A stretch of DNA of 64,000 nucleotides from Sulfobacillus benefaciens (GTDB taxonomy: Bacteria > Bacillota > Sulfobacillia > Sulfobacillales > Sulfobacillaceae), in assembly GCA_003023725.1 (NCBI GenBank), contig PXYT01000009.1:1-64000 (forward strand), given 5' to 3'. Made by a program: the position numbers and the translations under genes. The notes under the pieces were generated by a model that saw only the letters and a list, made by a program, of their open reading frames with translations, had not been told where the DNA came from and did no database searches. This document shows positions 62,573-63,557 of this stretch, piece by piece; within the stretch, counting starts at the first letter, position 1, and every line of letters begins with the position of its first letter.

Positions 62573-62690
62573 TTTTATTGGGTTTCACGGGGCCCATGCT
62601 TTTGTTGGTCATGTCGCGATCCCTTGGGACAGCTTGAATCAGGGCTTTTCAGCGCGGTACTGTGGGAATGTTCGGGGAAGTGGTAGACTG

Positions 62691-62708
62691 TTCTCATAGG
62701 TATGAGAA
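62691..62708 (+). promoter_or_regulatory. Fur-family operator
   Basis: A perfect inverted repeat TTCTCATA-GG-TATGAGAA lies 13 bases before the start of the Fur-family gene, so it probably mediates autoregulation. Confidence 0.6.
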
Positions 62709-62721
62709 TGAGGTGATGCAT

Positions 62722-63198
62722 ATGGTCCACCTGTCTTCCATCTACCGCAAACTGGAGGAAGGCGCCAAACGGCTGACTCCCCAGCGAGAATTGGTGATCC
62801 GGATCTTTGCCGAACACCCCGGAGAGCATTTGTCGGCCGAAGAGGTGCATCAACTCGTGAAAAGTCATTTTCAGGATATTGGACTGGCGACAGTATATCG
62901 GTCGTTGGAATTGTTGACGGATCTGGAAATTTTAACCCGCATCAGCTTTGACGATGGCCGGGCACGCTACGAATTCAATCAGGAGGAAACCCATCGTCAT
63001 CATCATCTGGTTTGTGTTCACTGCGGCCATGTTGATGAATACGCTGAGGATTTGTTGGATCCGCTGGAAGATCGGATTCTGTACGAACGAGGATTTCAAG
63101 TTTTGGATCATGAGTTGAAGTTTTATGGATTGTGCCGAAATTGTGCCGGCAAACTGGGGAAAACTGGGGGGCCAGTGAGAGAAACGAGAGGAGATTAG
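62722..63198 (+). CDS. Fur-family metalloregulator
   Basis: A 158-residue repressor of the Fur/PerR/Zur family. The winged helix contains RLTPQRELVIRIF and IGLATVYRSLELLTDLEIL; the metal region has ETHRHHHLVCVHCGHVDEY and a second CRNC pair, the structural zinc site. Sequence alone does not settle whether it senses iron, peroxide or zinc. ATG at 62722 has GAGGTGA five bases upstream; an ATG at 62716 is too close. It is followed within six bases by the Spx/ArsC-like gene, so the two may share a transcript and a link to redox or metal stress. Confidence 0.9.
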   Translation: MVHLSSIYRKLEEGAKRLTPQRELVIRIFAEHPGEHLSAEEVHQLVKSHFQDIGLATVYRSLELLTDLEILTRISFDDGRARYEFNQEETHRHHHLVCVHCGHVDEYAEDLLDPLEDRILYERGFQVLDHELKFYGLCRNCAGKLGKTGGPVRETRGD

Positions 63199-63203
63199 AA
63201 TCA

Positions 63204-63557
63204 TTGACAACGGTTCTGTACTGCTATAAGCGGTGAACGACCTGTGCCAAAGCGCGAGCGTGGCTCCGCACCCAGGGGATAGACTTTCGTGAACATGATT
63301 TGATAACCGAACCCTTGTCGGTATCCCAGATAGAGGCATTGGCAGAAAAAGTCGGAGGAACTACAAAATTATTGTCCCGGACCAGCCCTTCTTACCGAGA
63401 ATTGCGGAGCGCCGTGCATTCCGAGGCCGAATGGCTCGATCATATGGCAGCGGAACCCCGTTTGATTAAACGGCCGATATGGGTCATCGGTCATGATGTT
63501 GTTGTAGGCTTCTCGGAAGGACATTGGCAAGAACTTTGGGAGCAAAAGAGTCGTTAA
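63204..63557 (+). CDS. Spx/ArsC-like thioredoxin-fold protein with in-frame TGA at the catalytic cysteine (candidate selenoprotein)
   Basis: Read through the TGA at 63234-63236, the frame gives 117 residues that align along their whole length with the Spx/ArsC/YffB family: VLYCYKR, then the TGA codon, then TTCAKARAWL, followed by EPLSVSQIEALAEKV, LLSRTSPSYRELR and LIKRPIWVIG. The TGA falls on the first cysteine of the family CXXC motif, giving UXXC if read as selenocysteine. TTG at 63204 follows GAGAGGAG. A possible stem-loop starts four bases after the TGA. The alternatives are a recent nonsense mutation of a cysteine codon, or use of only the part from 63300. Function would be disulfide or arsenate reduction, or Spx-like regulation. 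Confidence 0.65.
63241..63276 (+). promoter_or_regulatory. Possible SECIS-like stem-loop
   Basis: CCUG (63241-63244) pairs with CAGG (63273-63276), GCCA (63246-63249) with UGGC (63261-63264), and GC/GC closes a GCGA loop at 63254-63257, about 18 bases after the TGA. Bulges interrupt the lower stem. Position suits a bacterial selenocysteine insertion element; the fold is only inspected by eye. Confidence 0.35.

Follow-up and report, generated by a model that had tools for sequence, protein, structure and literature searches.

Proteins of COG1393 that contain selenocysteine (Sec) have been described before, from the Sargasso Sea as an arsenate reductase in 2005 (PMC1088965) and as ArsC-like in 2006 (PMC1794560). 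A 2026 review of the prokaryotic selenoproteome lists Sec-containing ArsC-like forms under the models NF041106 and TIGR00014, and mentions neither Spx nor Sulfobacillus (PMC13188914). In open-access papers that combine Sulfobacillus with selenocysteine, the only selenoproteins named are formate dehydrogenase and PrxU; an earlier sighting elsewhere is possible. Here we analysed a window, the whole 64-kb stretch of Sulfobacillus benefaciens DNA, with a gene that apparently represents a distinct, uncurated, fur-linked Spx/MgsR-type subfamily of the known Sec-containing ArsC-like proteins. The preliminary description had regarded a Fur-linked protein of this kind in this lineage as probably new. 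Sec-containing COG1393 and ArsC-like proteins as such are already in the three publications cited above, and the part of the claim that stands is the fur-linked Spx/MgsR-type subfamily, which was not found there.

The gene is a 117-amino-acid frame with an Spx/MgsR/ArsC fold whose sole interruption is one TGA codon (Table 1). Its translation reads LTTVLYCYKR-U-TTCAKARAWLRTQG...QKSR*, where U is the first residue of a U-T-T-C motif, and this confirms the starting observation of the preliminary description, an open frame broken once, at the first Cys codon of CXXC. The TTG start codon is separated from the fur stop by 5 nt. All that a standard gene caller would give at this locus is an 85-amino-acid ORF from TTG 63300, as had been anticipated when the gene was expected to be missed or begun at that position.

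Table 1. Features of the selenoprotein locus (window coordinates) and of other UGA-containing genes in the same genome (contig coordinates).
Feature	Position	Strand	Remark
fur, Fur family ferric uptake regulator	62662..63198	+	directly 5' of selenoprotein gene; Pfam FUR 124 bits
AGGAG Shine-Dalgarno-like site	63189..63193	+	10 nt 5' of TTG start; read from sequence
Predicted selenoprotein gene, Spx/MgsR/ArsC family	63204..63557	+	117 aa; predicted Sec at residue 11; TTG start
UGA codon, predicted Sec	63234..63236	+	first position of UXXC; same codon in 38 genomes
TGT, Cys14	63243..63245	+	potential resolving cysteine of U-T-T-C; Ser/Ala in 13/38 members
SECIS-like hairpin	63252..63269	+	GCG(C)GAGC-GUG-GCUCCGC; apical GUG loop 63260-63262
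SelD with in-frame UGA	G000, C84:19770-20705		own genome
Formate dehydrogenase alpha subunit (FdhA) with in-frame UGA	G000, C81:17792-19651		own genome
Second formate dehydrogenase alpha subunit (FdhA) with in-frame UGA	G000, C46:30759-32621		own genome

A protein search over 61 related genomes, 42 of them in the Sulfobacillus order, identified 38 genomes whose homologue has a TGA in frame: 36 of the 42 order members and two genomes elsewhere in the class (G047, G048). The TGA occupies an identical alignment position in all 38 homologues, a recurrence that far exceeds chance, and the carriers include S. benefaciens and complete isolate chromosomes such as that of Sulfobacillus thermotolerans Kr1. 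Cys codons are absent from this position in all 42 order genomes; TGC or TGT aligns with it in homologues from Bacilli, Clostridia and Burkholderiales. Sec11, Ser61, Glu84-Pro85, Arg90-Pro91 and Gly102 are invariant among the 38 members. Ratios of dN/dS 3' of the UGA were 0.06-0.30 in 13 usable genome pairs (the pair L027/L032 was left out because of an indel), which points to purifying selection on this part of the sequence. The flanks had been called fully conserved; they are conserved on both sides, except that residue 14, the second Cys, varies across the 38 members (25 Cys, 9 Ser and 4 Ala).

These patterns bear on the possibility that the TGA is a true stop, left by pseudogene formation or sequencing error, and that at most the 85-amino-acid ORF is made. 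Such a reading would fit with a gene caller listing just that ORF. Counter to this, the same TGA recurs in 38 genomes from many assemblies, complete chromosomes among them, both flanks are conserved with purifying selection 3' of the UGA, and the codon is accompanied by a covarying hairpin and by full Sec machinery in the genome. We consider a true stop extremely improbable. We reject a pseudogene or a sequencing error on the conservation of the TGA in 38 of 61 genomes. The preliminary description had likewise argued against an old pseudogene, and the comparison of relatives that it proposed shows a TGA that is not unique to one assembly and is conserved throughout the order.

Six of the 42 order members lack the gene, three of which (G007, G030, G033) are just 59-63% complete. 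Two more (G010, G019), which belong to a single genus, have neither selA nor selD above cut-off; in G035 the sel genes are present and the Spx-like selenoprotein gene was not found. Across the 61 genomes, the UGA protein occurs in none of the 11 that are without selA and selD above cut-off (Fisher 3e-6, for genomes that are not independent). No tRNA-Sec above the Rfam cut-off was found in seven gene-carrying drafts (G006, G013, G024, G026, G028, G036, G048), and no selA in three (G023, G028, G036), presumably owing to assembly gaps or filter losses.

The S. benefaciens genome itself encodes the full set of selA, selB, selC and selD, for which the preliminary description had proposed a search. 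SelB (contig C82, 358 bits), SelA (contig C66, 556 bits) and SelD (contig C84, 358 bits) are joined by a tRNA-Sec with anticodon UCA (contig C72, 68.9 bits; tRNA-SeC tca in ARAGORN). SelD is of the Sec type, with its own UGA in the active site. Alternatively, an unusual tRNA could read the UGA as Cys or Trp rather than as Sec, and homologues do have Cys at this position. Arguing against this are the complete SelABCD set with tRNA-Sec, the UGA codons that SelD and FdhA carry as in known selenoproteins, and a hairpin that accompanies UGA forms only. In addition, TGA is the ordinary stop of 14 of the 47 long ORFs in the 64-kb window, a count that speaks against its general reassignment, which we reject. 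Decoding as Cys or Trp is, in our judgement, very unlikely.

The hairpin is a stem-loop directly 3' of the UGA with a G in its small apical loop, as expected of a SelB-dependent selenoprotein and as described for bacterial Sec stem-loops (PMC1088965). The stem has a one-base bulge in the window genus, and the window sequence alone folds no more stably than shuffles (z = 0.38). Because single-sequence folding energy is uninformative here, our assessment of the hairpin relies on covariation and on how Cys homologues compare. The 45 nt from the UGA onward align without gaps among the Sec genes, and the RNAalifold consensus is a single stem with a GUG loop in which three pairs are changed on both sides. 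In a pair count over the aligned Sec genes, 82.6% of stem cells are paired. Doubly changed paired cells number 22, against 6.6 ± 1.9 in shuffles, and the covariation score is 0.253, against 0.124 in shuffles; sliding the partner strand lowers all three measures. The choice of Arg or Lys at residue 18 tracks the nucleotides of residues 21-22, for example GCGAGC-GUG-GCUCGC versus GCGAAAGC-GUG-GCUUUCGC.

Comparison with Cys homologues separates the two forms. The Ala that precedes Trp is encoded by GCG in 38 of 38 Sec genes versus 6 of 43 Cys homologues (Fisher 4e-17), and the GCG share among the remaining Ala codons of the Sec genes is just 41%. Hairpins of at least 6 bp were found in 53 of 63 UGA homologues versus 4 of 49 Cys homologues (Mann-Whitney 8e-16; the sequences are related and the p value is indicative only). 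Distant UGA homologues, from other families of the class, Chloroflexota, Syntrophaceae and Rokubacteria, have a hairpin at about equal distance from the UGA, and retain it despite changed residues (RAALS, KAVLS, RAELS, KQLLG, REFLL). It is likewise retained where the encoded residues differ in L158, L160, L165, L166, L169 and L170.

Given the machinery, the conserved TGA and a SECIS-like hairpin with compensatory changes, the selenoprotein reading first put forward in the preliminary description holds, and we regard 63204-63557 as almost certainly a genuine selenoprotein gene. This confidence covers the selenoprotein claim, not the choice of target. The sequence establishes the gene, its UGA, the hairpin and the Sec machinery; Sec insertion, co-transcription with fur and redox chemistry are what we infer. 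The product, which belongs to the Spx/MgsR/ArsC superfamily and has a thioredoxin fold, would be translated right after fur, apparently from one mRNA. SelB with Sec-tRNA(UCA) would bind the hairpin 15-33 nt 3' of the UGA, and via SelB selenocysteine would be inserted at residue 11, in place of the redox-active N-terminal Cys of CXXC. The Sec11 selenolate most likely attacks an oxidant or substrate. It would then be recycled by Cys14 in UXXC members, including the window protein, or by an external low-molecular-weight thiol or redoxin in UXXS and UXXA members.

With Cys placed at residue 11, the TIGR01617 (Spx/MgsR) model of NCBIfam gives the protein 83.1 bits, above the cut-off of 75.05, and Pfam ArsC gives it 51.8 bits. 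In the DNA search, TIGR01617 exceeds its cut-off in 5 of 43 genomes, with most others somewhat below. All Spx-specific models stay below cut-off (NF002459, 59 of 123 bits; NF009210, 41 of 159; NF009885, 37 of 152), as do the NF041106 ArsC family (seleno)protein model (26.5 bits, cut-off 85) and the arsenate reductase equivalog TIGR00014 (39.7 bits, cut-off 106); among NCBIfam selenoprotein models, none passes its cut-off with this protein. The AlphaFold2 model of the 117 residues (pLDDT 94.9) is Spx/ArsC-like. Its best Foldseek matches are B. subtilis Spx with alpha-CTD, and glutaredoxin matches are weaker than those to Spx and ArsC. VIA-align ties PA3664 YffB (Z 17.8, rmsd 1.6, 111 residues) with Spx (Z 17.2, rmsd 1.9, 115 residues). 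Since a TIGR01617 search of the S. benefaciens genome gave no other match, the selenoprotein is apparently the sole Spx-family protein encoded there. Eight short TIGR01617-like matches with an internal TGA in other genomes (G003:C2:68158, G004:C1:321883, G036:C27:578, G037:C221:831, G038:C13:28839, G040:C131:19889, G042:C12:7761, G016:C51:11083) may be UXX-star glutaredoxin-type selenoproteins or ordinary stops.

What the protein acts on is a separate matter. Membership of the Pfam ArsC family, and the fact that these acidophiles live with arsenic (PMC7409299), would suit an arsenate reductase proper. With a score so far under the arsC equivalog cut-off, and with fur as the conserved neighbour, we think this function unlikely.

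We lean towards a reductase-type role in iron and redox stress ahead of an RNA polymerase target, with a small remainder for other functions. An Spx-type regulator binding the alpha-CTD of RNA polymerase, in which Sec11-Cys14 would be a more sensitive redox switch, is possible and clearly the less probable of the two. It would agree with the TIGR01617 score, with the top Foldseek matches to Spx bound to alpha-CTD, with the absence of a second TIGR01617 protein in the genome and with the adjoining regulator gene. The site that we take to be equivalent to Spx Gly52, an alpha-CTD contact, is Gly in the window protein and in 31 of 38 members; in 7 members it is Asp, Ser or Thr. Further against a regulator are scores below cut-off with each of the three Spx-specific models and the equally good fold match to YffB/PA3664. 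In the manner of single-Cys ArsC, a Sec that lacks a resolving Cys can function as a mono-selenol together with an external thiol; it cannot form the intramolecular bridge of Spx. Judged from the alignment, loss of the resolving Cys in a third of members would favour a mono-selenol reductase. We therefore rank a reductase-type role first on the combined state of Cys14 and the Gly52 equivalent.

The best NCBIfam match of the upstream gene is a Fur equivalog model (172.5 bits, cut-off 220). In 34 of the 36 order members that carry the selenoprotein gene, fur lies immediately 5' on the same strand, and its end is usually 10-50 nt from the UGA among order members; no upstream fur was matched in genus g9 (L022, L023) or in distant members. 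As the gene is near-universal in the order and tied to fur, a core role in iron/redox physiology is probable. An Spx-like mode of action would make the protein a transcription regulator that depends on selenium. More speculative, and in our view rather doubtful, is a Sec-based, RNA polymerase-binding Spx-type factor, with or without the resolving Cys, that is co-expressed with Fur for iron-redox sensing in iron-oxidising acidophiles.

The family tree has too few columns and was used solely for close Sec/Cys pairs of the wider class; it put proteobacterial YffB-like rows inside the window genus, which we take as long-branch attraction. Sec and Cys forms occur within one taxonomic family in f24 (L157/L160) and in f40 (L159, L162, L163, L164), and in both the long hairpin is confined to Sec forms. 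Because the two forms share a family, we interpret the catalytic residue as having switched between Sec and Cys more than once. These exchanges, with the hairpin in step, offer a natural experiment on the gain and loss of Sec. Separately, one Cys-type homologue (L152, G086:C26:2118-2453) has an in-frame TAG shortly after CXXC; its genome also holds a UGA copy (L153), and L152 is possibly a decaying duplicate. UXXC and UXXS Spx/ArsC-type proteins were also seen in Chloroflexota, Syntrophaceae/Smithella, Rokuibacteriota and one further bacterium (L093, L096, L098, L101, L111, L119, L127, L129, L130, L136, L147, L150). Most share the same hairpin type, and those tested stay under the NF041106 cut-off.

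Looking across known systems, the locus adds a conserved selenoprotein subfamily whose genes are split or missed by standard annotation. Like the Sec-containing COG1393 ArsC-like proteins, its members have a predicted Sec at the N-terminal catalytic position and a hairpin 3' of the UGA; unlike these and NF041106 proteins, they are of Spx/MgsR-type sequence with a KARAWL motif, are fur-linked and belong to Sulfobacillus-type hosts. With Spx/MgsR of Bacillus they share the fold, the position of CXXC, the KARAWL motif and, in most members, Gly at the Gly52 position, and they differ in the predicted Sec for the first Cys, in the second Cys lost from a third of members and in scores below the Spx-specific cut-offs. 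The YffB/PA3664-type reductase of the ArsC family (PDB 1rw1) has the same fold, but Cys where Sec is predicted here, and 29% identity.
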